Positions 2,929 through 33,123 of a DNA stretch of 33,365 nt are shown here, piece after piece. The notes under the pieces are model-generated. The model was not told the origin of the DNA, ran no database searches, and saw only the letters and a list, made by a program, of their open reading frames with translations. The position numbers and the translations under genes are program-made. Origin of the DNA: a bacterium (GTDB lineage Bacteria; CSSED10-310; JAJRTK01); the NCBI GenBank assembly GCA_024278345.1, contig JAJRTK010000035.1, forward strand, positions 1 to 33,365, given 5' to 3'. The stretch's first letter is position 1, and each line of letters starts with the position of its first letter.

Positions 2929-4640
2929 TCCTCCAGCGGGAGAACTTGTCGCTGGCCGTTCTTGATGTCGAGAAGAGGACTCCACCAGGCTTGCTCCAGC
3001 ATGGGCCGACCTCCAGCCGTCCATTGCAGACCCGTCAATCGCGAGTCCGCCGCATAGTAAACGACCGTGGCGAACAAGGGAAGAAGACCGGGCAAAGCCC
3101 GGAGTTTTTCGTCTGCTTCGAGCCAACTTGCCAACGATGAGCTGATGGATGAAGGAGATTTGGATAGGTTTGCCTGCCAGTCCATGAGTGTCAGAGCGGG
3201 AGCACCATAGGAGCGGACAAAAAACAGGGCCATATCGAAATCGCCCTCCGCTGTTTTTCGACAAATGGCGGTTTCGTTTTGCAGGTCGATCTGGATCCGA
3301 ACGCCCTTTTCAGAGAGGTCCCGGCGAATTCGCTCGGCAAGTTGCATCGCCAGGTGGCGCTGCAATGGGCACAAAAGCTTCAATGGCCCCTCGAGCTCTG
3401 GGGGGGGCCCGCCGTCAGATTGGGCCGGTGATGGCTGGCCATAGAAGGTAAGGCGTGGCTCGAACGTCTGGGCTCGTTTTCCGTGCCCCCACAGGCGGTA
3501 GGTGATCATCGAGTCGAAATCCAATTGCTTGGCGACCCATGCTTTGCGAAGGGAAGGGTGGCGCTTGTGATTCAGTAAGAGGAGAACAGTCTCGCGGTTT
3601 TCCATGGTGTAGAGCTTCAGATCTCGCGATCCGTCGGCAAGCCAATCGATTTCGGAGAGAGGTACGGGCGCGAGGTCGAGAGCTTTTTTCTCCAATTCTC
3701 GGAAGGCCTCATCCAGGGTTTTGAAGGATTGGATCTCAACTTTATCCAGGAAGGGTCGCCCAAGCCGATGAAGCGGGTTTGGGATGAGAACCGTGCGGTT
3801 GCTTCGCACCCTTTTCAGTATGAATGGCCCTGTTCCCAACAAGCGGCTCTGAGCATCGGTTCTCACGATCGCCGTGGCGGGGTGTGCCAGCTTGAAGAGC
3901 AGGAGCGGATCGGGGTTTTCGAGGTGAAGCGTCAGCTTCAGATCTAGCCAACCGGCCACGGGAGGAGGTAGTTCTGGAGCTTGGGCCGTGGGTTCAGTGG
4001 AAGCTCCCCTCCCGAGGTCCAGGTCGCCATCTCCGGGCTCGATGGCCGAAAAAAGCTCAAAAAGCGGGCCTTCACTGGAAAAGAGCATTTTCTTGAGCTT
4101 GAGGTTTTGGACAAGCCACTTTTGCGGGCCACTTTCCAGACGTGCCAGAGAGGAGATTACTGCAGCGGCAGAGATGCGCTCACCATCGGAGAAGAGCGCT
4201 GGAACGAGCTTCAACTGAAGAGTCTTCCCGTCATCGCTCTGTTTCCATTCCTCGGCCAGGCCGGGCAAAAGTCTTCCGGTAGGCCCGATTGTGAGCAGTG
4301 TTTCGAAGACGAGGCCCGTGAGGCTGCCGGTTGCCGGACGTTCCAATCGCGACGGGTCCATCTGGATTTTTCCCATCACAGGGACCCGGATCTGCCCTCC
4401 ATACTGAGGCCGAAGAGCTGCTCGGACGCCGGGCAACCGGGAAAAGAGGCCTAGAGGCGCCAGAGCGAGAAACAACCCTACCAGAAAGAGGGGCCGTGCT
4501 CTTCGTTTAGGGCGGAGTTGTCGGGAAACCCTTTGTTTTCTCCGTGTTGCGTTCCGCTCACATCGGTATCGACCCGTGCCTCTGGCACGAGTTCCCCGCG
4601 GCGCCCGCTGCTCGCCATTATCGCCGCCTTCGTCATCCAT
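2925..4640 (-). CDS. Extracellular solute-binding protein, SBP_bac_5 (peptide/nickel type), start uncertain
   Basis: A periplasmic binding protein of the oligopeptide/nickel family. It has the family opening (YGGQIRVPVMGKI, then VFETLLTIGPTGRLLPGLAEEW, DDGKTLQLKL), the mid-protein LLGTGPFILKR and a C-terminal substrate-lobe segment. The hydrophobic signal-like stretch RRARPLFLVGLFLALAPLG is clear, but no ATG precedes it in native sequence. Upstream is a dispersed repeat (4525-4780), and the frame stays open through it to 5033. I give the ATG at 4640, which lies inside the repeat. TTG at 4475 is the shortest alternative but lacks a basic n-region. The gene overlaps the kinase gene downstream by 4 bases. 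No permease genes are nearby, so it may feed a signal to the kinase (inference). Confidence 0.8.
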   Translation of the reverse strand: MDDEGGDNGEQRAPRGTRARGTGRYRCERNATRRKQRVSRQLRPKRRARPLFLVGLFLALAPLGLFSRLPGVRAALRPQYGGQIRVPVMGKIQMDPSRLERPATGSLTGLVFETLLTIGPTGRLLPGLAEEWKQSDDGKTLQLKLVPALFSDGERISAAAVISSLARLESGPQKWLVQNLKLKKMLFSSEGPLFELFSAIEPGDGDLDLGRGASTEPTAQAPELPPPVAGWLDLKLTLHLENPDPLLLFKLAHPATAIVRTDAQSRLLGTGPFILKRVRSNRTVLIPNPLHRLGRPFLDKVEIQSFKTLDEAFRELEKKALDLAPVPLSEIDWLADGSRDLKLYTMENRETVLLLLNHKRHPSLRKAWVAKQLDFDSMITYRLWGHGKRAQTFEPRLTFYGQPSPAQSDGGPPPELEGPLKLLCPLQRHLAMQLAERIRRDLSEKGVRIQIDLQNETAICRKTAEGDFDMALFFVRSYGAPALTLMDWQANLSKSPSSISSSLASWLEADEKLRALPGLLPLFATVVYYAADSRLTGLQWTAGGRPMLEQAWWSPLLDIKNGQRQVLPLED

Positions 4641-4780
4641 TGCCCCAGGGCTGGAGCACCACCGAAAGAGGTGGCACCGCATCTTTCGGCAGATGAAACC
4701 ACCTCCGGAGATCGGTGGGCGCCCAGCGCGCAGCGGATGCGAGCGATGGGTGCGGACCCCAACCCAAGGAAAAACAGACG
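4525..4780. repeat. MITE-like dispersed repeat, copy A (both ends present)
   Basis: An element of about 256 bp with imperfect terminal inverted repeats. The left end reads, on the minus strand, CGATGTGAGCGGAACGCAAC then an A-rich run. The right end on the plus strand reads CGATGGGTGCGGACCCCAAC then AAGGAAAAACAG. The interior carries CGTGCC-TCT-GGCACG and other small palindromes. Copies B, C and D share the interior core GCTCGCCATTATCGCCGC with small changes. It covers the 5' end of the SBP_bac_5 gene. Confidence 0.75.
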
Positions 4781-5029
4781 GTATGTCATTTTTCGAAGGA
4801 TTCATGATCTCTTTCTTGGAGCAATCTTTGTCGATCATCTCCGGCCCAAGGTTCCGGCGGCATCGTTTTGGCCTGGCCGTCAAGTGCTTGATCTTTCGTG
4901 TGAAAGCCGCCGCCGGTCGCGACGGGGTTCGGCGGAGCGCAAAGTAGAGTTCATGACCGGAACGATGACCATGGCCGGACAAGGTGAACCGTCTGTTCGA
5001 CTGCCGTTTTCGGGGCTGTGGATTTCCTG

Positions 5030-5356
5030 TCAATCGAGGGGTCTAGCAAGGGGCTCGATGAATATTTCCATGCTTCCTCCGCACTTCATACCGAGCTCTT
5101 CAGCATCGTCTGGAGTCAGCCGGAAGGAGAGCAGCCGGCATTCTCCGGTTTCCATCACTTCCAGGCTTTCGGCGTAGACTTCGGCCTCCACGCAACCGCC
5201 GCAGATCGTACCAGTCACCGATCCATCAGAGCGAACCAACATCTTCGATCCGGTTTTTCGAGGGGTGGACCCTCGAGTCCTCACGATCGTCGCCACTACG
5301 GCGGGCGTTCCGATTTCCAGGGCGTGGGCCATTTCTTGCAGCAGTTGGACGCTCAT
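5030..5356 (-). CDS. XdhC/CoxI-family protein (N-terminal domain only)
   Basis: A 108-aa protein matching the XdhC_CoxI domain found in chaperones that insert sulfurated molybdenum cofactor into xanthine dehydrogenase-type enzymes. It shows VVATIVRTRGSTPRKTGSKM, VTGTICGGCVEAEVYAES and MKCGGSMEIFIEPL, all typical. The C-terminal Rossmann domain of full-length XdhC is absent, but stand-alone short forms exist. ATG at 5356 has GGAGA 8 bases upstream. It lies 72 bases below the PfkB gene. moeA and a broken moeB lie elsewhere in the window, but no molybdenum hydroxylase gene is seen here. Confidence 0.82.
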   Translation of the reverse strand: MSVQLLQEMAHALEIGTPAVVATIVRTRGSTPRKTGSKMLVRSDGSVTGTICGGCVEAEVYAESLEVMETGECRLLSFRLTPDDAEELGMKCGGSMEIFIEPLARPLD

Positions 5357-5428
5357 ATCGTTTCTCCGGCTGCGTTGGAACTGAGCTCAATGCTCCGTCG
5401 GCGGTCTTTTGCGGAGAGGTCCATGCCT

Positions 5429-6361
5429 CTATCCGTTCTTTTTTTGAGGCAGGGGCCGGCCTTCGTAAATTCGGCTCAGCTCAAAGTCCTGAAGTCTGGC
5501 GCGAATCTCTTCCCGGTTCAGATCCACGAGCCCCGACACACCAAAATGTTCCACCGTGAAGGAAGCCATAATGGAACCATTCACGACGCCGCGGCGAAGC
5601 GTTTGTTCATCTACGGAATTTTCTCCAGCGATGGTGCCCATGAGGCCGCCGGCGAAGGTATCGCCCGCTCCAGTGGGATCGACGACTCGTTCCAGCAAGA
5701 GTGCGTTGGCCACGAAATGGCCATGAGGCGTGAAGAGCCAGGCACCGTATTCTCCTCTCTTGACCACCACGATCTTCGGTCCGAGATCCATGACCATCTT
5801 CGAAGCTCGCAGGAGATTCCGCTGGCCGGTGAGCTGCAGAATTTCGCCGTCGTTGAGAGTCACCAGATCGACCATCGAAATCGTTTTTTTGAGCTCCTCC
5901 AGTTTACTGGAGATCCAGAAGTTCATGGTGTCGAGGCCCACCAATTTCGGCCTTTCCATCTGCTCCAGCACACGGCGCTGGAGCACTGGATCGATGTTGG
6001 CCAAAAAAACGTAAGGTGCCTGACGATAGCTTTCGGGGATTTGGGGGTTGAACTGCTCGAAGACGTTGAGGTGGGTTTCCAGACTGACAGCGGCATTCAT
6101 ATCTCTTGTGTAGTCGCCTACCCATTGAAACGTTTTGCCCCGTTCTTGTTGAAGGCCCTTGAGATCGACACCATGGGAATCCAAGAGCTTGGTCTGTTCC
6201 TCTTCGAAATCTTCCCCGACAACGGCGACGAGCTGCACGCCCGCGAAGTTGCAGGCCGACAGGCTGAAATAAGTTGCTGACCCACCGAGTACACGTTCCA
6301 CTGATCCCGCCGGGGAGGTAATGGAATCAAAAGCAACGGAACCAACGACAAGAAGGCTCAT
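5429..6361 (-). CDS. PfkB-family sugar/nucleoside kinase
   Basis: A ribokinase/adenosine-kinase-type phosphotransferase of 310 aa. The N-terminal glycine motif VLGGSATYFSLSACNFAG and the C-terminal PfkB signature DPTGAGDTFAGG (catalytic Asp about 234) are intact. The NDGEILQLTG and KRGEYGAWLF strands are also typical. ATG at 6361 has GAGG 8 bases upstream. It starts 39 bases after the MTA phosphorylase gene and is probably co-transcribed with it, which suggests a substrate in purine or ribose salvage, such as a nucleoside (inference). Substrate specificity cannot be read from the sequence. Confidence 0.88.
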   Translation of the reverse strand: MSLLVVGSVAFDSITSPAGSVERVLGGSATYFSLSACNFAGVQLVAVVGEDFEEEQTKLLDSHGVDLKGLQQERGKTFQWVGDYTRDMNAAVSLETHLNVFEQFNPQIPESYRQAPYVFLANIDPVLQRRVLEQMERPKLVGLDTMNFWISSKLEELKKTISMVDLVTLNDGEILQLTGQRNLLRASKMVMDLGPKIVVVKRGEYGAWLFTPHGHFVANALLLERVVDPTGAGDTFAGGLMGTIAGENSVDEQTLRRGVVNGSIMASFTVEHFGVSGLVDLNREEIRARLQDFELSRIYEGRPLPQKKNG

Positions 6362-6400
6362 TTTGGGGACCTCTTCCAGGGACTGGGATTCTTTGGAAAA

Positions 6401-7264
6401 CTATTGATTGTCGAAGTATCGGCGAATGAGCAGCCCGATCTCTTCACGGCGAGCGGCGGGAATTGCGTCCACGGGCGTCAAGAGTGCGTGCTTGAGAGCA
6501 TCCTTGCAGCCGCACTCCCGTTTTTCCGGAATCAGGGCCACGGCGCGCTTCACCAGCTCTTGAGCGTGGGCCGAGTTCGCCTTCAGGTTGTCGATAACCT
6601 GATCCACCGTCACGTGATCGTGATCGGGGTGCCAACAATCGTAATCCGTGACCAGCGCCACGGTGGCGTAGCAGATCTCGGCCTCACGGGCGAGCTTGGC
6701 TTCGGGCAGGTTCGTCATCCCGATGACATCCACTCCAAAGCTGCGGTAGATGTTGCTTTCAGCCAAAGTCGAAAAGGCCGGTCCTTCCATGCAGACGTAA
6801 GTTCCGCCCTTGTGAATTCGAACGTCCACGCTTTCTCCGGCACGAGCCAAAATCCCGTAGAGCGTCGGGCAAATCGGGTGAGCAAAGGCGATGTGAACGA
6901 CGACGCCGTTTCCGTAGAATGTGCTTGGCCGGTTTTTCGTCCGGTCAAAGAACTGATCCACAAGAACAAAGTCCCGTGGAGCATACGCCGCCTTCATCGA
7001 GCCCACGGCGGAGAGGGAGATGATCCACTCGACCCCCAGCTTCTTGAAACCATAGATATTGGCACGGAACGGAAGTTCGCTGGGCAACAGATGGTGGTTC
7101 TTTCCGTGCCGCGGCAAGAAGACGAGCTCCTGAGAGCCGAGCGTGCCAAGAATGTATTCCGATGATGGCTTGCCGAAAGGAGTTTCCACTTTTTCTTCAC
7201 GAACATTCTCAAGCCCGGCCATCTGGTAGAGGCCACTCCCTCCGATGACACCAATTCTGTTCAC
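6401..7264 (-). CDS. mtnP: S-methyl-5'-thioadenosine phosphorylase
   Basis: A cytoplasmic phosphorolytic enzyme that splits 5'-methylthioadenosine to adenine and methylthioribose-1-phosphate, the first step of MTA recycling. The protein shows IGVIGGSGLYQMAGL, the phosphate-site FLPRHGKNHHLLPSELPFRAN, the active-site strand YVCMEGPAFSTLAESNIYR and VIGMTNLPEAKLAREAEICYA with TDYDCWH, all family hallmarks. Start: GTG at 7264 with GGAGG 7 bases upstream gives the usual length of 287 aa. A longer frame to 7375 adds 37 non-conserved residues. Confidence 0.92.
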   Translation of the reverse strand: MNRIGVIGGSGLYQMAGLENVREEKVETPFGKPSSEYILGTLGSQELVFLPRHGKNHHLLPSELPFRANIYGFKKLGVEWIISLSAVGSMKAAYAPRDFVLVDQFFDRTKNRPSTFYGNGVVVHIAFAHPICPTLYGILARAGESVDVRIHKGGTYVCMEGPAFSTLAESNIYRSFGVDVIGMTNLPEAKLAREAEICYATVALVTDYDCWHPDHDHVTVDQVIDNLKANSAHAQELVKRAVALIPEKRECGCKDALKHALLTPVDAIPAARREEIGLLIRRYFDNQ

Positions 7265-7560
7265 GCCCGCACCTCCATGGAGTCCACAAACGGCTTCTTG
7301 CCGCGCTTCGGGTTCAATGGATCCCACGCAAGCCCAGCGAAGCGGAGAAGAAGCAGCCGACTTCGATTTCTGCATGGGGGATAAGCGATTTCACCATACT
7401 CTTCTTCCATGCGCAACCATCACGGTCTGTCGGTAGCACGAGGCGTGCCGGTCACCGGTGGGGGTATCCGGCGTACTGGGTGGGCAGTTATCCCCTGCGG
7501 GAACGCGAGGCCCGAGTCCTCGCAAATGCATCTTCCTGGCAGTGGTCATCGGTAGTGCCT

Positions 7561-7650
7561 ACGGCAGCTCTCGCTGCCGTTCGGACCCGGCCACCCAGTG
7601 AATCGGGCACAGCGCCAGGGCCTCCGGCCCTGCCCGGCGGAGGCGCCGCC
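7561..7650. repeat. Cluster of GC-rich hairpins
   Basis: Three nearby perfect or near-perfect palindromes: ACGGCAG-CTCTCG-CTGCCGT at 7561-7580, CAGGGCC-TCC-GGCCCTG at 7616-7632, and GGAGGC-GCC-GCCTCC shortly after. They resemble REP-type extragenic palindromes. No T-tract follows, so terminator function is not supported. Confidence 0.55.
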
Positions 7651-7854
7651 TCCGGATCTCCGCCAGGAGCGCTGGTTCCGGACCTCGCCAGGGAGCTCGC
7701 GAAGACCCGTTGCAATGAAAAGCAACGAGATCCCCACCCACACCTTTGTCCCGCCACGGTTTGAACATCAGGGAACCAACTGACTTTCCAGCGTTTGAAA
7801 GTCACTGGGAAGGAGTTCGCCGGGGAGTTCGCTCCCTGAGCCCATTTTTTTTCT

Positions 7855-8062
7855 ACGGATCTTCCGGGAGGGTGGCCGGTGCCGACCGGAGGGAAAGTCG
7901 GCTCCGCCGACCACCGATGACCGGTAGTGTTCCACCCGAGGGCAGTGGATCGAAAGCGGCGGCAATGGCGAGCAGTGGGTGCCGCGGGGGAACTCGTGCC
8001 AAAGGCACGGATCGATACCGATGTGAGCGGAACGGAACGCAAAAAAACAAAGAGTTTACCGG
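7855..8062. repeat. MITE-like dispersed repeat, copy B (right end intact)
   Basis: The plus strand shares with copy A (reverse strand) the core GCGGCAATGGCGAGCAGTGG, then GGGAACTCGTGCC, AGGCACGGATCGATACC and the terminal GATGTGAGCGGAACG followed by an A-rich run at 8018-8062. The opposite end is decayed (CGGAAGATCCGTAGAAAAAA on the minus strand near 7850), so the boundary is approximate. Confidence 0.7.
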
Positions 8063-8197
8063 AATCCAGGTCCTCATCGAGGAGCACGAGCCGATGACCG
8101 AGACCATGTCCAAGGCTGCAATTCAGGTAGCCGGAGGGGGTGGCTCTCGCTTGGCGCCGGTGACTTCCCAACAATTCTCAAAACCGGAGACCTGGAC

Positions 8198-9433
8198 TTG
8201 CTGACTGTTCTTGAGGCCCGACAGCGGATCTTGGTGGAAGCACCGCTCCTTCCCGTGGAGGAAATCGATCTTTCCCGGGCTCAGGGCAGGATCGTGGCCA
8301 GCGAGCTACGGGCGCGGATCGACTTTCCTCCCTTCGCCAATTCAGCGATGGATGGCTATGCGGTTCGGAGTTCGGATCTCGCAGGGGAGCTCCCCTGCCG
8401 GCTTGAGGTGATCGAGGAAGTGATGGCTGGGAATTGGCCGGTTCGGAAGGTCTTGGCCGGCCAGGCTGCGAAGATCATGACCGGTGCGCCGGTCCCCAAG
8501 GGCGCCGATTGTATCGTGCCGGTGGAACAGACCGATGGCGGCCGCGATCTGGTGGAGATCCGGGAGCGCTCCTCCAAGGGCCGGCATCTGCGGCCGGCGG
8601 GGGAAGACATCCAAGCTGGAGACGTGGCCCTGGGAACAGGGGAAAAGCTCCATCCGGTGCTTCTTTCCTATCTGGCGAGCCTGGGAATCGACCGGGTTTC
8701 GGTTCGCCGTCGGCCTCGGGTGGGAGTGCTCTCCACCGGCGACGAGCTGGCCCTGCCAGGTGCCCCGCTGAAGCCTGGCCAAATCTATGCCAGCAACGAG
8801 CTGTCTCTTGCGGGCCTGGCGCGGAACTTGGGTTGCGACGTTCGAGGTGTGGGGCCGGTTTCGGATCGCCTTGAGGCGATCATGGCGGCCATGGAAGAAT
8901 TGGCGGGGTGGGCCGATCTGCTCATTAGCTCGGGCGGCGTCAGTATGGGGGACCGCGATTTGGTGCGGATTGCGTTGGAGCGCCTGGAATTCAGGGAGAT
9001 CTTCTACCGGGTGAAGATCAAGCCCGGCAAGCCGTTGGTTTTCGGAAGGATGGGAAAGCTCCTTGTGTTTGGGCTTCCTGGCAACCCGGCCTCGGCCATC
9101 GTGACCTTCCTGGAGTTCGTGGAGCCGGCGATCCGGGCGATGCAAGGGGCGCCCGATCCTGTTCCACCACGCATTTTGGCCAGAGCTTCAGAAGCCTTGC
9201 CCAACCTCAAGCCCCGGCGTTTCTACATGCGGGTTCAGGTCCGGCAGCGTGGCGGAGAGCTGTGGGCGGAGCCCCTTCCGCGGCAGAGCTCGGGGCTTCT
9301 TCGGAGCCTGGCGTCCGCTGATGCCTTGGCTCTTCTGGAGCCAGAAACGGAAAACCCCGCCGGGGAGATCATCCGCGTTCGCCCGCTTTCCTTCGGCGTT
9401 TCGGCGTTGGGAGGGAGATGGCGGGTTGGCTGA
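8198..9433 (+). CDS. moeA: Molybdopterin molybdenumtransferase MoeA
   Basis: Inserts molybdate into adenylated molybdopterin in the last step of molybdenum-cofactor synthesis. The 411-aa protein has FPPFANSAMDGYAVR, IMTGAPVPKGADCIVPVE, the RPAGEDIQAGD segment, RPRVGVLSTGDEL, the catalytic-domain SSGGVSMGDRDL, KPGKPLVFG and FGLPGNPASAIVTF. Domain IV follows at the C-terminus. The start is TTG at 8198 with GGAGA upstream; no ATG fits the conserved N-terminus. It heads a plus-strand run that continues with lepB 92 bases later. A moeB-type gene in the same run is interrupted by stop codons. Confidence 0.93.
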   Translation: MLTVLEARQRILVEAPLLPVEEIDLSRAQGRIVASELRARIDFPPFANSAMDGYAVRSSDLAGELPCRLEVIEEVMAGNWPVRKVLAGQAAKIMTGAPVPKGADCIVPVEQTDGGRDLVEIRERSSKGRHLRPAGEDIQAGDVALGTGEKLHPVLLSYLASLGIDRVSVRRRPRVGVLSTGDELALPGAPLKPGQIYASNELSLAGLARNLGCDVRGVGPVSDRLEAIMAAMEELAGWADLLISSGGVSMGDRDLVRIALERLEFREIFYRVKIKPGKPLVFGRMGKLLVFGLPGNPASAIVTFLEFVEPAIRAMQGAPDPVPPRILARASEALPNLKPRRFYMRVQVRQRGGELWAEPLPRQSSGLLRSLASADALALLEPETENPAGEIIRVRPLSFGVSALGGRWRVG

Positions 9434-9525
9434 AGGGGGAACCGAGGCCCTAAAGGAAAGAATGTACATTCCGATATCCAACCCAATGCCGGACTCTGGT
9501 GGAAGAACCAAAAAGGGAAAACGAG

Positions 9526-10230
9526 ATGAGCAAAGATGACCGGCCACCTTCTTTCAGGGACCGCGTTCGGAGCGGCCTGCGCCTTGGCGGACTGGTGCTG
9601 GCGCTGCTCTGCATTCGTTCCTCGGTGGCGGCGCCGTACCGCGTGCCCACGGCATCCATGGAGCCGACGATCATTGCCGGAGACCGGATCTACGTCAACA
9701 AGTTGGCCTACGATTTGAAACTTCCCTTTTTGGGCGTGAGCTTGCTGCGCCTTGGCGAGCCGGCTCGAGGCGAAGTGGTGCTTTTTCAGCCTCCTGGCGA
9801 AGAGGGAATTCCATACGTCAAACGGGTCATCGGGGTTCCTGGCGATCGGATCTCCATGGAGGCGGGACGGCTCAAGATCAACGGAGTCATGCTGCCTCTA
9901 GAGGGCTTGGCGGATCGGGCACCCCTGGACGAAGCGAGCGATCATCCCAAGCGGAAGCAGCTCTTTCGGGAATCGTTGGGAGAGATCTCTCACCTAGTGG
10001 CCCAGGATCTGTTGGCGCTCCGGCTTCGGGAGTTCCCGGAGCTGGAGATTCCCGCCGACAATTATTTCGTCATGGGAGACAACCGGGATAACAGTGCGGA
10101 TTCCCGGGTTTTCGGTTTCGTGCCGCGGGATGCGTTTCTGGGCCGTGCCTCCATCGTCTATGCTTCGGTCCGTTGGGACGAAAACGGGTTCCAGATATTC
10201 TGGGATCGCTTTTTCAAGCGGCTGGGATGA
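9526..10230 (+). CDS. lepB: Signal peptidase I
   Basis: A membrane-bound S26 serine protease that removes signal peptides after export. It has one N-terminal membrane segment (about 17-36), the nucleophile in TASMEPTI (Ser about 44), the general-base Lys about 99 in PYVKRVIGVPGDRI, and the conserved GDNRDNSADSR at about 184. The length of 234 aa includes an inserted segment of about 50 residues between boxes D and E, as in many Gram-negative enzymes. ATG at 9526 follows AGGGA by 8 bases. A GTG at 9499 would add 9 residues and is less likely. Confidence 0.92.
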   Translation: MSKDDRPPSFRDRVRSGLRLGGLVLALLCIRSSVAAPYRVPTASMEPTIIAGDRIYVNKLAYDLKLPFLGVSLLRLGEPARGEVVLFQPPGEEGIPYVKRVIGVPGDRISMEAGRLKINGVMLPLEGLADRAPLDEASDHPKRKQLFRESLGEISHLVAQDLLALRLREFPELEIPADNYFVMGDNRDNSADSRVFGFVPRDAFLGRASIVYASVRWDENGFQIFWDRFFKRLG

Positions 10231-10232
10231 TG

Positions 10233-10318
10233 GGTCGTGGTGGAGTGATGGGCGACGGGCTGCGGACGGATTGCCGCCGACCGGAGCGGAACGCAACTCG
10301 AGACGAAACTCATTCGTT
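10233..10318. repeat. MITE-like dispersed repeat, copy E (one end)
   Basis: Begins 3 bases after the lepB stop. It contains GGCGACGGGCTGCGGACGG, a GCCGCCGACC stretch, then the terminal motif GGAGCGGAACGCAACTCGAG and an A-rich tail pointing towards the next gene. Only one terminus is recognisable. Confidence 0.6.
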
Positions 10319-10391
10319 TCCCCCTTTCTGTGGACGGTTGGAAGGCGCGTTCAGGATGGAGCTTGGCAAGCGCTCGGAAGGGAGCTGAACC

Positions 10392-11645: not shown

Positions 11646-11760
11646 CGAAACCCTTTATTTTCATTTGTGTTGAGTTCCGCTCGCGTCGGCGGCAGTCCGT
11701 CCGCCGCCACTCGCCATGATCGCCGCTTTTGCCATCGGCTGCCCTCAATCCAAAGCGCAG
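11644..11760. repeat. MITE-like dispersed repeat, copy D (one clear end)
   Basis: Starts at the stop codon of the preceding gene. On the minus strand it reads GCGGCGATCATGGCGAGTGG, GGACGGACTGCCGCCGACG, GAGCGGAACTCAACACAAAT then an A-rich stretch, closely matching copies A and E. It is inverted with respect to copy E, so the two terminal motifs face each other across the gene between them. The far end, up to about 11850, is too diverged to define. Confidence 0.65.
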
Positions 11761-11863
11761 CCAGGGATCGGTGCCCGGCGCCCTCCGGAAACGCACGGCT
11801 GGAACCGATCCAAGCAGCCTGGTATAGAAGGGAAAAGGCGAACCCAGGGAAGGAAATGGGGCT

Positions 11864-12343: not shown

Positions 12344-12455
12344 CCCCGGGGAACGGCGCACGGCGGTGGACTGGTCTCCTTGCCCTGGTGGCCGCGGTCG
12401 ATGGGTGGATTCCCCGGAAGCACGAGAGGCTGCTTGATCTTTGGGAGAGACGTGG

Positions 12456-13946: not shown

Positions 13947-13981
13947 TATCCGCGGGTTTTGGCCCGGAATCCACCGGGTAA

Positions 13982-14867: not shown

Positions 14868-14960
14868 AGCAACGGTTTCTTCTCTTTTGGTTGTGTCCGC
14901 TCCCGTCGCGTGGCAGCCGCCACGCGCCCCTCGCCTTCCTTCGGATCGTCGGGAAGGAGC
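14868..14960. repeat. MITE-like dispersed repeat, copy F (one end), inside the znu operon
   Basis: On the minus strand it reads GGCGAGGGGCGCGTGGCGG, a CTGCCACGCGAC palindromic part, GGGAGCGGACACAACCAAAA and GAGAAGAAACC. This matches the terminal motif and A-rich tail of the other copies. It sits between znuC and znuB. Confidence 0.6.
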
Positions 14961-18324: not shown

Positions 18325-18416
18325 CCTACGCGCCTCCGGTCTCCGCCTCTGCTCCTCCTTGGTGGAAACGCGCCTCGAACCACCTCGCTACGATCCGTGA
18401 GAGTTCCGGGTTGGAG
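18325..18416. repeat. 90-bp dispersed repeat, first copy
   Basis: From CTACGCGCCTCCGGT to GAGAGTTCCGGGTT, with the core CTCCTCCTTGGTGG and CGATCCGTGA. A second copy with roughly 80 percent identity by eye is at 30582-30672, same orientation. No coding sense is apparent. Confidence 0.65.
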
Positions 18417-21542: not shown

Positions 21543-21818
21543 CCTTTTTCTTTTCTTGAGTCCGCTCCCATCGCTCGCGGCCGCTCGCGTCGGTCGCCTG
21601 CTCCGCGGGGTGGCCCGGGCTTTGGCCGTCTGGCCGGAATTCCCCCAAGTGGCGCGAGGCGGGTTCGCCCCCGGAAGACCTTTTCGCGGAAGGTGCGCCG
21701 CCCAATGGCCGGGGATCCGGGTCGGCGGTGTCACCGACGGGGTTTTCGGCAAGCCGGGCGAGCAGCGTGAGCGGACGCGAGCGATGGGAGTGGAACGGAA
21801 AAAAGAAGAAAAGACCGC
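21543..21818. repeat. MITE-like dispersed repeat, copy G (both ends present)
   Basis: A 276-bp element that fills nearly the whole gap between recD2 and pgsA. Left end (minus strand) GCGAGCGATGGGAGCGGACT then an A-rich run; right end (plus strand) GCGAGCGATGGGAGTGGAAC then AAAAAAGAAGAAAAG. The ends are near-perfect inverted repeats over about 18 bases. The interior is GC-rich with small palindromes and differs from copy A. Confidence 0.78.
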
Positions 21819-23192: not shown

Positions 23193-23210
23193 AAGAGATG
23201 GGGACTTCCG

Positions 23211-23255: not shown

Positions 23256-23326
23256 ACAGTCGTTTGGTGCTGGGGCAGTCCAGGCGAGGCGACGCAAAAA
23301 CCGAACGAACTTTGGAAGGAAGATTC

Positions 23327-24106: not shown

Positions 24107-24168
24107 ACCGGTATTGCTCTTTCCACTCGGCAGGGGTGGACTTTGGTGACTTCAAAAGGAGGAGATCG

Positions 24169-25470: not shown

Positions 25471-25510
25471 TATAAGGTGAGTGCCGCTGGAAAGCGGTGC
25501 CTTCCACAAA

Positions 25511-25542
25511 CCTTTGGGGCACGGCAAGCCGTGCCCCAAAGG
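25511..25542. repeat. REP-like perfect palindrome
   Basis: CCTTTGGGGCACGGC-AA-GCCGTGCCCCAAAGG, perfect 15-bp arms, between the convergent TMEM43 and hypothetical genes. Its centre, CACGGC..GCCGTG, is the same as in the hairpin at 18217. It may serve as a two-way transcript end, but no T-tract is present. Confidence 0.65.
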
Positions 25543-25551
25543 TGCCCCGAC

Positions 25552-26112
25552 CTAAAGTGCGGCCCAATTGCCGCGATCAGCTCGGGCGTAGAGGCGGAGG
25601 GAGAAATCCTGGGCCGTCACTGGTAAGCCATCGGCTCCAAGAGCGGTGACAAGGTGATCGACGAACCATGGGTTGTAGTGGGAAGGGTGGGTGAGGGCAT
25701 CGAGAAAGACGCTCCGCGCAAGGTCTTCCCACACCTTTTGGATGCCCTTTTCCACAGTCGCCCAGGTTCCATCGTCCACGGGGTTGTTGCTCTTGATCTG
25801 CGCGTGGAGGCTGATCTTATTCTTGCGGACATAAACCTTCGGAAGCTCAAGGGCGATTTTCCCCATGGGCGTGCCCACGGAGCAGAGTTCCATTTGAGTT
25901 CGAGCTTCCGGCCAGTCGTGAACCTCTAGGAGTAAGAAATCGCGGGTCAACGCTTCGTCTTCCTCGGGTGCTGTTTCCAGCGCCTGCCCAGCCAGGAGTC
26001 CGATGCCTTCCCCCGTGCCTTCGAGCCTGGAGCTGAGAGCTTCCAGCCCCGGAGTGAGGGGTTCTTCTTGAACGGGCATCTGTTGGTCACCGAAATGGAA
26101 GATGATCTGCAT
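25552..26112 (-). CDS. Hypothetical protein
   Basis: 186 aa, not recognised. ATG at 26112 (MQIIFHFGDQQMPVQEEPL) has AGGAAGGA about 6 bases upstream, better placed than the first ATG 18 bases earlier. The protein is acidic in its first half (EAPEEDEALTRDF) and predicted soluble, with mixed helices and strands and no signal peptide. The middle VGTPMGKIALELPKVYVRKNKI and the end LRLYARADRGNWAAL look like ordinary folded protein. It follows a small basic protein gene on the same strand, by 103 bases, and probably shares its promoter. Confidence 0.65.
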   Translation of the reverse strand: MQIIFHFGDQQMPVQEEPLTPGLEALSSRLEGTGEGIGLLAGQALETAPEEDEALTRDFLLLEVHDWPEARTQMELCSVGTPMGKIALELPKVYVRKNKISLHAQIKSNNPVDDGTWATVEKGIQKVWEDLARSVFLDALTHPSHYNPWFVDHLVTALGADGLPVTAQDFSLRLYARADRGNWAAL

Positions 26113-26215
26113 CTTGGTCCTTCCTTTCAAAATCTATCCTGATAAAGGAAAGCGCCAGCTCCGAAGCGGGCTGGCGACGATCCTGGAAATCTATTCACGG
26201 GCGGAGAACGCGCGT

Positions 26216-26479
26216 TCAGCGGCGCTTCGATCTTGGAAGCAGCTCATCGAGGACGGCATCGATTTTAGACTTGGATTGGCGACGCTTGCGAACACCTTTT
26301 CCCAAAGGCTTTCGCGCCGGCCGAATCGGTTTATTGAGGGATTTGAGTGAGCTCGTCCGCTTGGGTTTTGCCACTTGACGCGACAAGTTACAGCTCACCA
26401 CGACCTCTAGATCTACGTCCAACTCCGCGAGGCGGGCGTCTTTATGGAGTGTTACTGGAACGACGATCTTCTTTTCCAC
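26216..26479 (-). CDS. Small basic hypothetical protein
   Basis: 87 aa starting at GTG 26479, preceded by GAGAGAGAG. A strand-like N-terminal half (KKIVVPVTLHKDARLAELDVDLEV) is followed by a strongly basic tail rich in Lys and Arg (KPLGKGVRKRRQSKSK), so nucleic-acid binding is conceivable. I do not recognise a family. A good promoter lies just upstream, within the end of lysC, which supports the gene being real. Confidence 0.5.
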   Translation of the reverse strand: MEKKIVVPVTLHKDARLAELDVDLEVVVSCNLSRQVAKPKRTSSLKSLNKPIRPARKPLGKGVRKRRQSKSKIDAVLDELLPRSKRR

Positions 26480-26547
26480 GATGCTCTCTCTCTGGTTGCT
26501 CTTGAGGTGAGTTGGCTCACCACCTGTGAATAAAGCTGCACACCACG

Positions 26548-26576
26548 ACCATAACTAAGCGTTCTTGGAAGGTCAA
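26548..26576 (-). promoter_or_regulatory. Candidate promoter for the two small unknown genes
   Basis: On the minus strand TTGACC, exactly 17 bases, TATGGT. The -35 box abuts the lysC stop codon. Transcription would start about 60 bases before the GTG at 26479, and the leader contains a small hairpin (GGTGAG-CCAA-CTCACC). Confidence 0.45.
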
Positions 26577-27806
26577 CTAGGGAGAACTCTCTTTTCTTTC
26601 AAGCCGGTTGAGCCCGAAAGCTCCATGGAGAACGGCGACGGCGTCCGCTACGCGATTCCGGCCAATGATACAATCGATTCTAATCTCCGAAGTATTGATG
26701 AGATCAATATTGATTCCATGGGATGCCAATGCTTCGAACATCGTCGCCGCAACACCAGGTGTCATGGCCATCCCAGCTCCGACGATGCTGACGCGACCGA
26801 TATCCGATTCACCCAGCACTCCGGCTGCCTCCACGTGATCGACGATAGACTCCATGGCGTCCAACGCTTCGGAAAGCTGGTCGCTGGGAACCAGCACGGT
26901 AATATCCTTGTGACCGCTTTCGCCAATCGACTGAATAATGAACTTGATATTGACTCGAGCTGTCGCAAGAGCCTGGAAGATGATGGCGGCAACACCTGGC
27001 TTGTCGGGAACTGACTTGATGGCCACTTTTGCGATGTCTGTCTCGGATGTGACACCGGTGACCACAACTGATTCCATTTTGTCTCCATCCGTAACAAGGG
27101 TGCCTCGGTTCCAGTTGAAGCTCGAACGGACCCAGAGCGGGATCTTGTAAGTGCGGGCCAAATCTACCGAACGCGGGTGGAGAACGCGTGAACCCGAAGC
27201 CGCTAGTTGGACCATCTCATCGTATGAGATCATCGACAGGAGCCGCGCATCGGAAACGATTCGCGGATCAGCCGTATAGACACCCTGGACATCGGTAAAG
27301 ATTTCGCACATTTTCGCCCCAAGACGCGCCGCCAGGGCGACTGCCGTCGTGTCCGAGCCTCCTCTACCCAGAGTCGTCACTTCTTTCTCAGGGCTCACGC
27401 CCTGGAAACCGGCAACGATGACAACCTTGCCGCGCTGGAGCTCTTCGTCGATACGGATCGGTCTCAGGGCAACGATTTTGGCTCGCGTGTGCTGAGTGTC
27501 AGTGATGATACCACTTTGAGAGCCAGTAAACGAAATCGCCGGGGTGCCGATGGCGTTGAGGGCCATGGACATGAGGGACATGGAGATTCGCTCTCCGGCC
27601 GTCAGCAACATGTCGAGCTCTCGACGGCTTGGTTCCGTGGTGATCCCGCGGGCAAGGGCAACCAGCTCATCCGTTTGTCGGCCCATGGCCGAGACCACCA
27701 CCACGACGGCATCGTGAGCCGCGCGTGCCTGCGCCACTTGCCTGGCCACCTCTCGGATCCTCGTGACAGTGGCCAGGGAGGTGCCGCCGAATTTCTGGAC
27801 GATCAT
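26577..27806 (-). CDS. lysC: Aspartate kinase
   Basis: Phosphorylates aspartate, the first step to lysine, methionine, threonine and diaminopimelate. A monofunctional 409-aa enzyme: kinase signature MIVQKFGGTSLATVTRI, then LLTAGERISMSLMSMAL, FTGSQSGIITD, VAGFQGVSPEKEVTTLGRGGSDTTAVALAA, DVQGVYTADPRIV and ASGSRVLHPRSVDLA, followed by two ACT domains (from about 265) for feedback control. The ATG overlaps the TGA of the upstream M16 gene (ATGA), so translation is coupled. Confidence 0.95.
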   Translation of the reverse strand: MIVQKFGGTSLATVTRIREVARQVAQARAAHDAVVVVVSAMGRQTDELVALARGITTEPSRRELDMLLTAGERISMSLMSMALNAIGTPAISFTGSQSGIITDTQHTRAKIVALRPIRIDEELQRGKVVIVAGFQGVSPEKEVTTLGRGGSDTTAVALAARLGAKMCEIFTDVQGVYTADPRIVSDARLLSMISYDEMVQLAASGSRVLHPRSVDLARTYKIPLWVRSSFNWNRGTLVTDGDKMESVVVTGVTSETDIAKVAIKSVPDKPGVAAIIFQALATARVNIKFIIQSIGESGHKDITVLVPSDQLSEALDAMESIVDHVEAAGVLGESDIGRVSIVGAGMAMTPGVAATMFEALASHGINIDLINTSEIRIDCIIGRNRVADAVAVLHGAFGLNRLERKESSP

Positions 27807-30355
27807 GGCCTCGCCCGCTCAAGAACTCCCGTTGCCATCCGAGCAGGATCCAGCCACTGCCGGGTCCAGCCATGAAGCTCTTCGGTGGTGATCGATCGCA
27901 GCCGCTCCGCCAAGTCAACCTCTTTTTCCGGCGCCAGCCCCAGAAGCTTTTGCCGAGCCGTGAGAAGCATTTGCCCCCCAATGGTTTGCCGCCTCAGAAG
28001 GTCCCGCCCGGTGACCGCTCCCGCCGCGCGTGCCAAAATCTCTGGAGGCATGGGCTCGTTTCGGAGCCGCTCCAGAATCTCCACAACTCGCCCGCGGGCT
28101 TCCAGCGCTCCCAGCACTCCGGATGCGACTCGAAGACAAAGCGCACCCGCTTGCTTCCCCCAGAGCGGACCAACACTGGAAACCCGGATCGTCTCGGAGT
28201 CAGCTACAAGATGATTGGGGATTCCCCAGTTTTCGTCCTCCAGTGCCGATTGAAGCAGAAGAAGATTCCCTCGTTCCGGCGCAATGGCGGGACAGGCCGG
28301 AAAAGCCAAGAACTGGACATGTCCTTCGGCTTTCCTTCCCGCCACACAAATTTTGGCCTGTTTCGGAGGAGGTGGAGAGGAATGGGAAGCATCCGCCTGC
28401 ACTGGCTCGGGAAGCCAAGTCTCGGAAACCTGCTCCAGCAGCTCCTGCGGCTGCACGTCCCCGACAACGGAAACAAGCTGGCGTTGACGCGCCGTCACTT
28501 TCCCGCTCCACTGGGCGAATTCAGCGGTGCCATGTTGCGATAGTTTCTTCCCTGGAAGAGAAGCGAAACGACCGTAGGAATGTTCCCCGTAGAGCGCCCG
28601 GAGCACAAGATCGAGGCATCGGTAGCCTTCCGCTACATTCCCGCGGGGCCGAACCAGCCTTTCCACTGTGCGACCGATGGCCATATCCGTGTGCTCGGAA
28701 GCGTGAACCAGTTCCAGTGCAAGCTTCCAAATGGCCCGGAAAGAAGAGCGATGGCAACTCATGGCAAGACCGAAGTAATCGCGACTCAGAATTGGTTTGA
28801 TGGCGGCGTCGAAAGCCTGAATGCGATCACTTATGTCATGGTGCAGCCAAAGGTCGAGGAGTAAGCGAGTCCAGCCATGTTGATGGGCGGCCTCGTCACG
28901 GCAACCGCCGTCAAAAAAAATGCCCAGTGCCAAAAGCGAAGAGTGAGACGCCTGGCTGAAGAAAATGTCGGGGCCTCCGGAGACTCGGCAGCTTCTGAGA
29001 GTCGGAATACGTTCTTTCCAGCGTAGCCTCGGACGGCGGCGACCGAGCCCCACCGCTTGCTGGAAGTTGAGGCAGAGCGACTTGAGGTCCATGGGAGGAG
29101 CAGGATCGCTTGCCGCCCTGGAATGGATGATGGAACTTTGCTCGAATCGAAGGTGGTGCCGGCAAGCCCGCTGAAGACTTTCCGAGGTGACGGAACGCAG
29201 TTTGCCCAAAACGACGTCGATGAGATGGTGTCCGCCCAAGGCTTCAAAGTAGGCTAGAGCGGCCGCCTGCTCGTCCAAAGACTGGTGGGTGGACAGAAAA
29301 CGAGCGGCCAAGCAGCTTCGGGCCCGCTGGATCACCGGTTCGGGCAGGAGCTCTCGTTGCAGGTTCGCCAACATGGAAAAAACGGCTTGCTCGGTTTTTT
29401 CGAACTCCGATGGCGGCAAAGTCGCGGCGATCTGGAAGATCCCGCCAGTGGCTGTCCGCCGGTAGGTGCAACGCAAACGCTCAAACAGTTGGCGAACCGC
29501 GGAACTCTCACCGGTCAAGGTATCTAGGAGCTTCTGATTGAGAAGCCATTGAAGCACTTGGAGGGCGTACTGATCTTCCCCCATCCCTCCCGGAGCGCGA
29601 AACCCGATGGCGAGCTCCGAGGAGGGCGTGTCGTGGCTCAGCTCTAGGAGGCGGGGAGCTGTCTGAAGCGGTTCTCGGGGGATCGTGGGCCGTTGAAACG
29701 AGACTGGCGGCAGGTCGGCATACCTTTCTGACACTGCTTTGAGAGTCGGTTCAATGTCAAGGTTTCCCACCACAACGATGGTCGTGTTGTTCGGCCGCAA
29801 GCGCAACCGGTGCCGGGCGAGCAACTCCTGGGGACCCAGGTGCCCGAGCTCGGAAGAAATATCAAAGCGCAACTTCCCCAGCAGATGACTTTGGAAGGCC
29901 AACTCGTGAAGCTTGCTTGTCACCGACAAGATCGGGCTTTTCCCCCGAAGATCGCCTTCGGAAAGAAGCTGGGAAAACCGCCGTTCCACCTGAGCTGATT
30001 CGAAAAGCGGGCTGTGAGCTGCATCCGTTTGGATGGAAAGGGCTTCGGAAAAGGCGCCTGCCGGAACGACACAGCGCGAAACGCTGTGGACCAGGTTGGA
30101 ATAGGAGTACGAGTAGCCGCCCACGGCCCGAACCACCTGCTCCACGGCCCTTGGTGAAGAGTACTTTTCGCTGCCATCAAGGAAGAGCCGGCACAAAAGC
30201 TCGTTGAGGCCGAACAGAGCCGGGGGATCGTGCAAAATGCCCGTCCTCACGTGCGTAAGAACCGTCACCACGGAGGAAGCCTCTACTCGCTTCGCCAAGA
30301 TGACAAGCCCGTTGTCCAGCATTTCGCGAATGACGCCTTTGGAGATCAGCAGCAA
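27803..30355 (-). CDS. Fused double M16 peptidase homologue without zinc sites
   Basis: An 850-aa protein made of two M16 (insulinase/processing peptidase) units, about 1-420 and 450-850. The folds are clear (LTHVRTGILHDPPALFGLNELLCRLFLDGSEKY, VVVGNLDIEPTLKAVSERYADLP, and a second GIFFDGGCRDEAAHQHGWTRLLLDLWL). The HxxEH zinc motif is replaced in both halves: E52, C55, R56 in the first and R497, L500, D501 in the second. It should therefore lack peptidase activity and may act as a non-catalytic partner, as in known active/inactive M16 pairs. Start: TTG at 30355 with GAGGAGG 8 bases upstream. No signal peptide is evident. Coupled to lysC by a 4-base overlap. Confidence 0.85.
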   Translation of the reverse strand: MLLISKGVIREMLDNGLVILAKRVEASSVVTVLTHVRTGILHDPPALFGLNELLCRLFLDGSEKYSSPRAVEQVVRAVGGYSYSYSNLVHSVSRCVVPAGAFSEALSIQTDAAHSPLFESAQVERRFSQLLSEGDLRGKSPILSVTSKLHELAFQSHLLGKLRFDISSELGHLGPQELLARHRLRLRPNNTTIVVVGNLDIEPTLKAVSERYADLPPVSFQRPTIPREPLQTAPRLLELSHDTPSSELAIGFRAPGGMGEDQYALQVLQWLLNQKLLDTLTGESSAVRQLFERLRCTYRRTATGGIFQIAATLPPSEFEKTEQAVFSMLANLQRELLPEPVIQRARSCLAARFLSTHQSLDEQAAALAYFEALGGHHLIDVVLGKLRSVTSESLQRACRHHLRFEQSSIIHSRAASDPAPPMDLKSLCLNFQQAVGLGRRRPRLRWKERIPTLRSCRVSGGPDIFFSQASHSSLLALGIFFDGGCRDEAAHQHGWTRLLLDLWLHHDISDRIQAFDAAIKPILSRDYFGLAMSCHRSSFRAIWKLALELVHASEHTDMAIGRTVERLVRPRGNVAEGYRCLDLVLRALYGEHSYGRFASLPGKKLSQHGTAEFAQWSGKVTARQRQLVSVVGDVQPQELLEQVSETWLPEPVQADASHSSPPPPKQAKICVAGRKAEGHVQFLAFPACPAIAPERGNLLLLQSALEDENWGIPNHLVADSETIRVSSVGPLWGKQAGALCLRVASGVLGALEARGRVVEILERLRNEPMPPEILARAAGAVTGRDLLRRQTIGGQMLLTARQKLLGLAPEKEVDLAERLRSITTEELHGWTRQWLDPARMATGVLERARP

Positions 30356-30439
30356 TCGCGCGGCCTCCTCTCAGGGATCCCAGGACGGCCTGCCAGTTCG
30401 TTGACAAGAGCCGCTTGGGTGTGACCACCCACCGGTTGC

Positions 30440-30468
30440 AGTATACTCTTGAGCCTGGCAAGATCCAA
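30440..30468 (-). promoter_or_regulatory. Candidate promoter of the M16-lysC operon
   Basis: On the minus strand TTGGAT, 17 bases, TATACT. It would start transcription about 75 bases before the TTG start at 30355. The -10 box is good, the -35 box poor. Confidence 0.35.
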
Positions 30469-30581
30469 ATGATCTCGAAACTTGATTCTACCCGGAACTC
30501 TCATTACGTCTCTACCGCAGCAGCCGATCCATCGTCCCCACCGGCGTCCTCGTCGGCCAGCTCCTCGACGTACCGCAAGAC

Positions 30582-30672
30582 TACGCCTCCGGTGTCTGGC
30601 CTTCCTCCTCCTTGGTGGCAACGCCCCTCGGACCGCCTCGTGACGATCCGTGATGAGAGTTCCGGGTTCTAG
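30582..30672. repeat. 90-bp dispersed repeat, second copy
   Basis: Matches 18325-18416 over its length: CTACGCCTCCGGT, CTCCTCCTTGGTGGCAACGC, GACGATCCGTGA, GAGAGTTCCGGGTTCT. It lies in the 430-base gap between the divergent M16 and greA genes, in which I see no gene. Confidence 0.65.
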
Positions 30673-30740
30673 GTGCTGGCGGGGTTTGTTTTTTTCTTTT
30701 CGCCCCGTTTGGTTTCTAGGAGCGGTGATCCCTCGCCCCT

Positions 30741-30772
30741 AACCCCGCAACGCCGAGCATGCGGGGGTTTTT
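30741..30772 (+). terminator. Terminator-like hairpin in the greA leader
   Basis: CCCCGCA (30743-30749) pairs with TGCGGGG (30760-30766) and is followed by GTTTTT, 17 bases before the greA ATG. No plus-strand gene lies upstream for it to terminate, so an attenuator in the greA leader is a reasonable reading. Confidence 0.6.
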
Positions 30773-30789
30773 GTCACTGGAGGAAGGAA

Positions 30790-31272
30790 ATGCCACACTA
30801 CATGACGCGGAAGACCTGGCAGCATCTCAATGATCGGTTGCTGCAGCTCAAAAAGATCACGGGACAGGGAGGAGAGCTCGCCGCGGAGATCGGTCGGGCC
30901 AGCGAATTTGGCGATCTTAGCGAAAACGCCGAAAGAGACGCTGCCATCGAACGGCAAGAAACTATTGGTAGAGAAATGCAAAACATCCTCCAACGGTTGT
31001 CTGGGGCGGAGATCATCGATGATATCGAGATATCCACCGACGTCGTCATGATCGGAACCAAAGTGACACTCTTCGATCTCGATACCGAAAAGGAACTCTC
31101 ATACAGACTCCTGGGAAGCGAAGAGAGTAAACTCTTCGGCAACACGATCTCAGTAGGAAGTGCCCTTGCCCGTGGGCTTTTGGGGAAAGAGGTGGGTGAC
31201 GACACGGAAATCCATGTCCCTTCCGGAGTCCGCTCCTTCGAGATCCTCAAGATAGAGCATTACGATTCCTAA
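30790..31272 (+). CDS. greA: Transcription elongation factor GreA
   Basis: Enters the secondary channel of RNA polymerase and stimulates cleavage of backtracked RNA. The 160-aa protein has the N-terminal coiled coil with the catalytic acidic tip EFGDLSENAERDAA, and the C-terminal FKBP-like domain (IGTKVTLFDLDTEKELSYRLLGSEE, ISVGSALARGLLGKEVGD). ATG at 30790 follows GGAGGAAGGA; the longer frame to 30673 passes through the leader hairpin and is rejected. fmdB-type gene follows 27 bases later, probably in one transcript. Confidence 0.95.
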   Translation: MPHYMTRKTWQHLNDRLLQLKKITGQGGELAAEIGRASEFGDLSENAERDAAIERQETIGREMQNILQRLSGAEIIDDIEISTDVVMIGTKVTLFDLDTEKELSYRLLGSEESKLFGNTISVGSALARGLLGKEVGDDTEIHVPSGVRSFEILKIEHYDS

Positions 31273-31299
31273 GAGATTGCGGCGCCAGGAAGGAAAAAA

Positions 31300-31671
31300 A
31301 TGCCCATCTACGAATACCGGTGTCAGGCCTGCCGAAAGCGGTTTAGCAAACTGTGGCTCTCAATGTCTCTTGCAACAGCTATCCCAAACTGCCCTAAATG
31401 CGGCGCCGCCAGGGTCCATCGCGTAATCTCCCGAGTCGCTCGCGTTCGCTCGGAAGAAAGTCGCCTGGAGTCCCTGGCGGATCCCAGGAACTTCTCTGAC
31501 CTAGACGAAAACGACCCCGCCAGTGTGTCAAAGTGGGCGAAGAAAATGGGCAAACACCTTGGAGACGAGCTGGGGGAAGATTTTAGCGAAGCCCTGGAAG
31601 AGACCCTCGCCACCGAAGGCCTCGATGGCGAGGGCGCCAGTTCAGGCGGCACGGACGACCTGCTGCTTTGA
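31300..31671 (+). CDS. FmdB-family zinc-ribbon protein
   Basis: A 123-aa protein with the N-terminal FmdB regulatory-protein zinc ribbon: MPIYEYRCQACRKRFSKLW, then CPKCGAARVHRVIS, four Cys in two CxxC pairs. The rest is acidic and probably helical or disordered. Family members are small putative regulators of unclear function. ATG at 31300 follows AGGAAGGA. It sits directly after greA on the same strand. Confidence 0.85.
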   Translation: MPIYEYRCQACRKRFSKLWLSMSLATAIPNCPKCGAARVHRVISRVARVRSEESRLESLADPRNFSDLDENDPASVSKWAKKMGKHLGDELGEDFSEALEETLATEGLDGEGASSGGTDDLLL

Positions 31672-31761
31672 TAAAAAAGCCTTGCCGGGATTCAATCACC
31701 GGGCAACCTGCCACGGTTGGCGGCTCTGAACACAACACCAGCGCTTCCGCGCAAACCTTCC

Positions 31762-33123
31762 TCAACCACTCATTTCCTGCCGAAGATCGCGAACTTCAGC
31801 CTGCAACTCCTGGATCGCTTGGGTGAGCTCGAATAGGCGGTAGGCGATGAGTTCCAGATCCGCGGACTGGGAGGGATCGGGTTCTCGCAGCCCCGAGATC
31901 GACCACGAACCAAGGCGGCTGGAAAGCTTTGATTCCGCTTCAGAAAGCCTTCGTTCAAGCAGCCCCTCGAAAGACTCGCTTTTCTCTTTGGAAAGAAACT
32001 CTTTTTCCCTGGTGGGCGAAGAACCAGCGGTGTCGGCTTCCAGAGCGGGGATGGCGGCAACCAGGGTTTGGTCATCACTTTCCAGGAGGTCTTCCTCCTC
32101 TTTCGATCGAACTGCTGGCGACGAGGGAGCTTCTTCGGGTTGGGCTCCTGACCGGGAAGGAAGAGGAGGCGGGAGGCTCAACTCTTCTCGCTTGCCGTAT
32201 GTGCCGGCGGTGTCCTCGATTTTCGTAACAGGGTTTTGAGGTGGCTTTGACTCTGGTGATGCCTGAACGGTGTACCCCGTGGGCAGCGCAGCGGAACCGG
32301 ATTCCTGGAGAGCACGGCCACCGAGCGCCTCATGCCATTCCGCATCGCGCTGGAAGGCACCGGTCGGTTCATCGCCATCATCCTCCCAAAGGGGAGGGGT
32401 CTCGTGGTCTCCCTTGTCAACGCCAAGTTCCGAATCACCATCTTCGTTTTGAAAGTGGTTTTCTGTTAACCCTTTGTTCTCTTTGTGTTGCGTTCCGCTC
32501 CCATCGGGCGCCGTCCGGCGCCCGCTACTCGCCGTTGTCACCCCTCTCTCCACCCACGACCCGAAGCCAGGAGCCTCGCCAGGAGCCGGGCTTCGGGATG
32601 AAACCGGGGCTGGCCCGGGCCTGGAACCCGAGCCCACCGTTTCGGGCGGCAAGAGTCCCGTGAAAGATTCCCCGTCAGAGAGGGCTTCGTCGCTGGTGGC
32701 CGAATCTTCCGGAGATTCATCTTCGGGCCAAAGATGTGGGGTTTGGGACTCTTCCGCCTCCGCCAAAGATTCGGGGGCAATCTCTCCGGACTGCGGGTGG
32801 GCGTCAAGGTTGGCCTGGAGCTTTTGGACAAAGAGATTCTGATCCAGGACAAGGGTGCGCTCCGAATCGGTATCCTCGTCATCGAACGGATGGAAGCTAT
32901 CGGCGGCTGTTGTCCAGGCTTCTTCGGAAGGGTGGGCCGGTGGCGAGGTCTCGGCGGCCAGGACTTCTGGAGGTTCGCGATCCCGGGAAGATTCTGCCGG
33001 GAACCCCTTCTTATCCACGGAAGGCGAAGAATTGCTGGCGGAAGTCTGAGGCTCTCGGGAATGATTCATGGGGCGATGACCAGTCGTCTTGTGAAGATTA
33101 GACGGCGAGATACTAGACTCCAT
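31762..33123 (-). CDS. Acidic low-complexity protein with C-terminal coiled coil, containing an in-frame repeat
   Basis: 453 aa, not recognised. Most of it is rich in Glu, Asp, Ser and Pro and probably disordered. The last 35 residues (ADLELIAYRLFELTQAIQEL and following EVRDLRQEM) form a clear short coiled coil. There is no signal peptide or membrane segment. Residues about 187-221 (TASSGRRTAPDGSGTQHKEN) are translated from dispersed repeat copy C. ATG at 33123 is the longest start; ATG at 33069 is an alternative, and neither has a good ribosome site. The frame is uninterrupted and the composition is consistent, so it is probably expressed. Confidence 0.6.
   Translation of the reverse strand: MESSISPSNLHKTTGHRPMNHSREPQTSASNSSPSVDKKGFPAESSRDREPPEVLAAETSPPAHPSEEAWTTAADSFHPFDDEDTDSERTLVLDQNLFVQKLQANLDAHPQSGEIAPESLAEAEESQTPHLWPEDESPEDSATSDEALSDGESFTGLLPPETVGSGSRPGPAPVSSRSPAPGEAPGFGSWVERGVTTASSGRRTAPDGSGTQHKENKGLTENHFQNEDGDSELGVDKGDHETPPLWEDDGDEPTGAFQRDAEWHEALGGRALQESGSAALPTGYTVQASPESKPPQNPVTKIEDTAGTYGKREELSLPPPLPSRSGAQPEEAPSSPAVRSKEEEDLLESDDQTLVAAIPALEADTAGSSPTREKEFLSKEKSESFEGLLERRLSEAESKLSSRLGSWSISGLREPDPSQSADLELIAYRLFELTQAIQELQAEVRDLRQEMSG
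32466..32600. repeat. MITE-like dispersed repeat, copy C (one end), inside a gene
   Basis: On the minus strand GGTGACAACGGCGAGTAGCGG, GCGCCGGACGGCGCC, then GATGGGAGCGGAACGCAACA and AAGAGAACAAAGGG. It lies within the acidic hypothetical gene and keeps its frame open. The second terminus is not seen. Confidence 0.7.

Follow-up and report, generated by a model that had tools for sequence, protein, structure and literature searches.

Dispersed over a 33,365-nt stretch of bacterial DNA (the window) are repeats that raise the question of what kind of mobile unit they represent and what moves it. A preliminary description had pointed to seven places sharing a motif and an A-rich tail, and had taken the motif for the terminus of a MITE-like element with inverted ends. 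A profile search identified nine core copies in the window (Table 1), including all seven of those places, for which E ranged from 5.8e-15 to 0.0049 with zero matches to decoys; the A-rich tail is likewise real.

Table 1. Repeat copies and related features of the window.
Feature	Positions	Strand	Ends or basis
Full-length MITE, 172 bp, A41-type core inside	4492..4663	-	TIRs GGTGGTGCTC...GAGCACGGCC
TSD of the preceding MITE, perfect	left 4484..4491; right 4664..4671	.	GAAAGAGG
Separate B16-type core, no TIRs, beyond the TSD of the 4492-4663 MITE	4716..4774	+	profile search
Full-length MITE, 169 bp, A41-type core	7923..8091	+	TIRs GGTAGTGTTC...GAGCACGAGC
TSD of the preceding MITE, perfect	left 7915..7922; right 8092..8099	.	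CGATGACC
C-type core, degenerate 5' part	10246..10307	+	profile search
Decayed MITE, C-type core at 11658-11721	11647..11758	-	profile search
Divergent core, own perfect hairpin GCGTGGC-GGCT-GCCACGC	14880..14938	-	profile E=0.0049
B-kind core, first of outward-facing pair	21546..21602	-	profile search
B15-type core, second of outward-facing pair	21754..21803	+	profile search
Decayed MITE, A17-type core at 32476-32539	32441..32574	-	profile search
IS1-like element fragment, ends matching MITE ends	33298..33365	+	94% identity over 68 bp; contig breaks here

No other repeat in the genome is as common as this motif. An 18-mer allowing up to two mismatches matched 388 times in the 6.06-Mb genome, and its reversed pattern not once; a profile of the motif region found 158 core copies in a 1.10-Mb portion of this genome and none in the reversed sequence, and 13 more stretches of the genome (0.143 Mb) yielded 20 further copies. 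Multiplying the 388 pattern matches by the profile-to-pattern ratio gives an estimated 600–800 or so copies per genome, expressed as a range because the contigs examined (approximately 1.24 Mb fetched) were partly picked for having matches. Other genomes of the phylum gave at most one match each to the 18-mer; the nearest comparison genomes, which come from different families of the phylum, lack the repeat. When about 85,000 other species were scanned for an exact 19-mer, a single match turned up, ascribed to chance, and searches for the repeat in other genomes or phages gave nothing beyond chance. A 70-nt direct repeat in the window (18331-18400 and 30584-30653, 83% identical) is unrelated to this family.

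The family is characterised by a conserved core of 45–47 nt, consisting of GGCGAGyRG, a hairpin, GATGGGAGCGGAACGCAAC and an A-rich tail, or, in finer form, of GGCGAGyRGCG, a hairpin of 15–18 nt (or 39–41 nt in a longer form), GATGGGAGCGGAACnCAAC and a tail, rich in A, about 12 nt long. Core types, designated A17, A41, C and B15/B16, are distinguished by the hairpin: GGGCGCC-GGAC-GGCGCCC in A17, GCGGACGGAyTGCCGC in C, and in B15/B16 a hairpin whose tandem A-G/G-A mismatches are present without variation in each of the 22 distinct 45-nt cores.

In full-length elements this core lies in the middle and not at the end, so that the motif had been assigned the wrong role. These elements are 137–172 bp long, too short to hold a transposase gene and without coding capacity, and have terminal inverted repeats (TIRs) GGTGGTGCTC...GAGCACgACC, also written GGTGGTGCTC...GAGCACGACC. 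Among 50 full-length copies, the identity between the two flanks peaks sharply at 8 bp (mean 0.55 versus 0.33 in shuffled pairs); the 8-bp target-site duplication (TSD) is perfect in ten copies and within one mismatch in 15, and perfect duplications of 4–7 or 9–11 bp were found in none. By eye, the duplicated targets often resemble CGAnTTTG. The arms with GGTGGTGCTC and GAGCACgACC ends flank many A-type and some C-type cores: comparison of the arm consensus with the flanks gave z values of 32, 35 and 13 on the left and 25, 16 and 8 on the right for A41, A17/18 and C, respectively, the arms being individually visible in part of the copies only. A loose MAFFT alignment had at first suggested a width that included arms on all copies, an estimate dropped once per-type profiles had been made.

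The shared boundary and the duplication agree with the view that these are MITEs, but the ends, the length and the supposed inverted-end elements of 256–276 bp have to be redrawn. What had been read as one element at 4525-4780 is the first full-length MITE beside an unrelated core outside its TSD, and the supposed element at 21543-21818 consists of two arm-less cores facing outwards, 152 bp apart and without TSD. Close tails-out pairs of this kind (gap under 200 bp) number only four among the 158 copies in 1.1 Mb, which indicates that the family is not characteristically arranged in inverted pairs; frequent inverted dimers, a trait of many REP families, are thus not seen here.

The genome also contains a multicopy element whose end (GGTGGTGCTCTATAGTTAGGGC, also given as GGTGGTGCTCTATGGTTAGGGC) matches the MITE ends and which, at contig C548, encodes a C-terminus with similarity to the IS1 domain PF03400. 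This domain is matched weakly (26.4 bits against a cut-off of 24.1 in the genome search, and 6.5e-5, just under cut-off, for the translated piece), and the element could be read in fragments only, as its copies are broken or cut by contig ends and none is intact. A 500-bp query from it found ten places, five of which share the MITE-like boundary, in flanks that are unrelated to one another; several of the pieces sit at the ends of contigs, and one forms the final 68 bp of the window. A further IS1-like derivative (L195:794-1010, G000:C474) has GGTGGTGCTC-type sequence at both ends and contains AATGGCGAG; it is possibly an intermediate between IS and MITE.

The TIRs, the TSDs and the ends common to the multicopy IS1-like element all point to IS1-type MITEs. 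We consider it probable, at roughly 0.78, that the repeats are MITEs which belong to an IS1-like element and have a REP-like hairpin core inside, accompanied by many decayed or bare cores. The IS1-like transposase would move the 137–172-bp MITEs in trans, recognising the GGTGGTGCTC-type TIRs and duplicating 8 bp of target; after insertion, copies would lose TSD, TIRs and arms but keep a recognisable core, and many copies of the A and C types would be MITEs decayed in this way. The earlier proposal of a non-autonomous family, dense in this genome, is supported by all of this: the elements lack coding sequence, and the genome has an element with matching ends that bears a transposase, albeit with a weak domain match and in fragments. 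That the elements are instead MITEs of the IS1595 family is very improbable. IS1595 transposase genes are present and one of them adjoins a MITE copy, but the IS1595 end, GGCTCTATATGCGATCC, is unlike the MITE end, and the neighbouring MITE interrupts the gene without sharing ends with it. That gene (L148:12190-13008) is interrupted in its 5' part, and a second MITE end lies about 30 bp further on.

With respect to genomic context, 149 of the 158 copies lie outside predicted genes, 16 of these at sequence edges, the gene borders being approximate as genes were predicted with a simple purpose-written codon-usage caller. That several copies start near stop or start codons is accounted for by this almost wholly intergenic location. 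Divergent, convergent and codirectional gaps hold copies in proportion to gap length. The repeats and the IS1-like element probably help to explain why the assembly is in 550 pieces, since several contigs end in them. Further dispersed families of successive hairpins were seen elsewhere in the genome (L143:1-1200, L147:10700-11000, L138:4830-5100 and others; examples are CTCCCTGGACCCACAT, GGTACCATGACCGAGGCC, GTATCCACGCAAGGCGGGACA and TTTGATAGGTCCC), each at about 20–40 places per 1.1 Mb and frequently with one nested inside another; a GGGAACTCG...CGGGTC hairpin module is common to some of them and the long MITE form.

The core hairpin is unusually well preserved and appears to be maintained by selection, and on one strand. 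Covariation over ten stem pairs scored 0.440, against 0.198 ± 0.015 for shuffled and at most 0.171 for slid pairings, in a set whose shared ancestry inflates the scores. Wobble cells counted in the stem comprise 68 G-T and one A-C, suggesting that what is conserved is the fold of the top strand in single-stranded form, and not a symmetrical cruciform. Most likely the hairpin would be recognised either in RNA or in single-stranded DNA, in mobilisation or in host use, and the strand-specific covariation offers a direct handle on the purpose of the core. The B15 hairpin was not recovered by single-sequence DNA folding because of its tandem G-A mismatches, so that the putative B-type stem is suggested by sequence comparison and not by folding.

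The covariation and the G-T pairs, which occur almost solely in one orientation, would also fit a conserved structured RNA element, such as a regulatory or processing site, that was spread by the MITEs. This seems unlikely, given that the share of copies in divergent and convergent gaps follows the length of these gaps and that their orientation relative to neighbouring genes is without significant bias (48 same and 34 opposite in codirectional gaps, p=0.15); moreover, RNA folding of the whole element is no better than that of shuffles (z=-0.87). A riboswitch, a terminator or another known RNA was rejected for lack of an Rfam match and of an orientation bias. Copies show no preference for the G-rich strand as judged by G-skew.

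Of the classified cores, about a quarter have neither MITE arms nor duplications. Around B15 and B16 the arm signal is small (z 4.6 and 2.3 on the left, 0.4 and -0.7 on the right), and B-type cores have nothing in common outside about 60 nt, their flanks being mutually no more alike than shuffled ones (the 99th percentile is exceeded by 0.9% of pairs). At the borders of short or bare cores, TSDs are not above control. Without arms, flank likeness or TSD, the bare cores are REP-like. Under the IS1-type MITE reading, B-type cores would either be the most ancient relics, in which selection has preserved the core, or represent a REP-like unit that once spread alone.

Could the core, then, be a new REP class moved by a RAYT, of which the IS1 element merely captured one copy? 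The core does resemble a REP in being a short palindrome of about 45 nt, intergenic and present in hundreds of copies, and the arm-less, TSD-less B types fit such a class. The genome has a single RAYT (Y1 transposase) gene (L129:2510-3235, G000:C390:22510-23235; NF047646, E=1.4e-18), whose 3' end is overlapped by a B-like core, with another, outward-facing core 1.2 kb upstream. A core is found, however, at the 3' end of 26 of 704 genes (3.7%). Within the RAYT coding sequence itself the hairpin GTAGGGGCGGGTTCCGAACCCGCCCC (minus-strand reading) occurs twice in frame, both copies being of the GTAGGGGC type, and GTAGGGG-type hairpins lie in or near the gene at 27 of 29 RAYT loci from other genomes, which argues that the cognate of this RAYT is probably a GTAGGGG-type tag and not the core. 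A GTAG or CGTC tag defines two REP superfamilies (PMC3733652), but a fixed, unpaired tag of either kind at one end is missing from the core, in which positions 6–9 vary (GTAG, GCAG, GTGG, ACAG and others). The case for RAYT as the mobiliser, attractive at first because a core abuts the gene, is weakened by these hairpins and by the frequency of cores at gene 3' ends, and the REP class that it would have moved is unlikely. It is possible, if rather doubtful, that the solitary cores represent a new REP-like class of mobile hairpin outside the GTAG/CGTC superfamilies, one that would have multiplied both alone and as a passenger of the IS1-type MITE, with its hairpin selected as one strand.

Among known systems, QMITE2 of Coxiella burnetii comes closest. 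It is a MITE of 150–190 bp with TIRs, direct repeats of 7–11 bp and a REP inside, of which small copies without TIRs or direct repeats resemble bare REPs (PMC5896051). The present family shares with it the arrangement of TIRs and direct repeats around a REP-like core and the small bare-core copies. QMITE2 has a GTAG REP core and about 50–80 copies, whereas the present family has no fixed GTAG tag, approximately ten times more copies, several covarying hairpin types and IS1-like ends. A single genome here shows every stage from the intact MITE with TIRs and TSD to the bare REP-like core, a series that bears on whether some REPs are remnants of MITEs or MITEs pick up REPs.

Likeness to the IS1 family lies first in the ends, which start GGTGnTGCT, as does the end of IS1 itself. 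It extends to the PF03400 domain of the partner element and to the target duplication, which is 8 or 9 bp upon IS1 insertion (PMC12428005). Unlike IS1, the MITE lacks coding sequence and carries an unrelated hairpin core, and the partner, read in fragments only, has diverged. With REPs (PMC3733652) and REPINs (PMC3116915) the family has in common short, intergenic palindromes at hundreds per genome, but it differs from them in lacking a fixed tetranucleotide tag, in the rarity of inverted dimers and in an unconvincing RAYT link. ERIC and Correia elements (PMC10969869) are likewise intergenic MITEs with up to hundreds of copies per genome, although their sequence is unrelated. The repeat family is thus a lineage-specific one of an already known kind, set apart by its lineage-specific sequence, its copy number, its untagged core and its strand-specific covariation.
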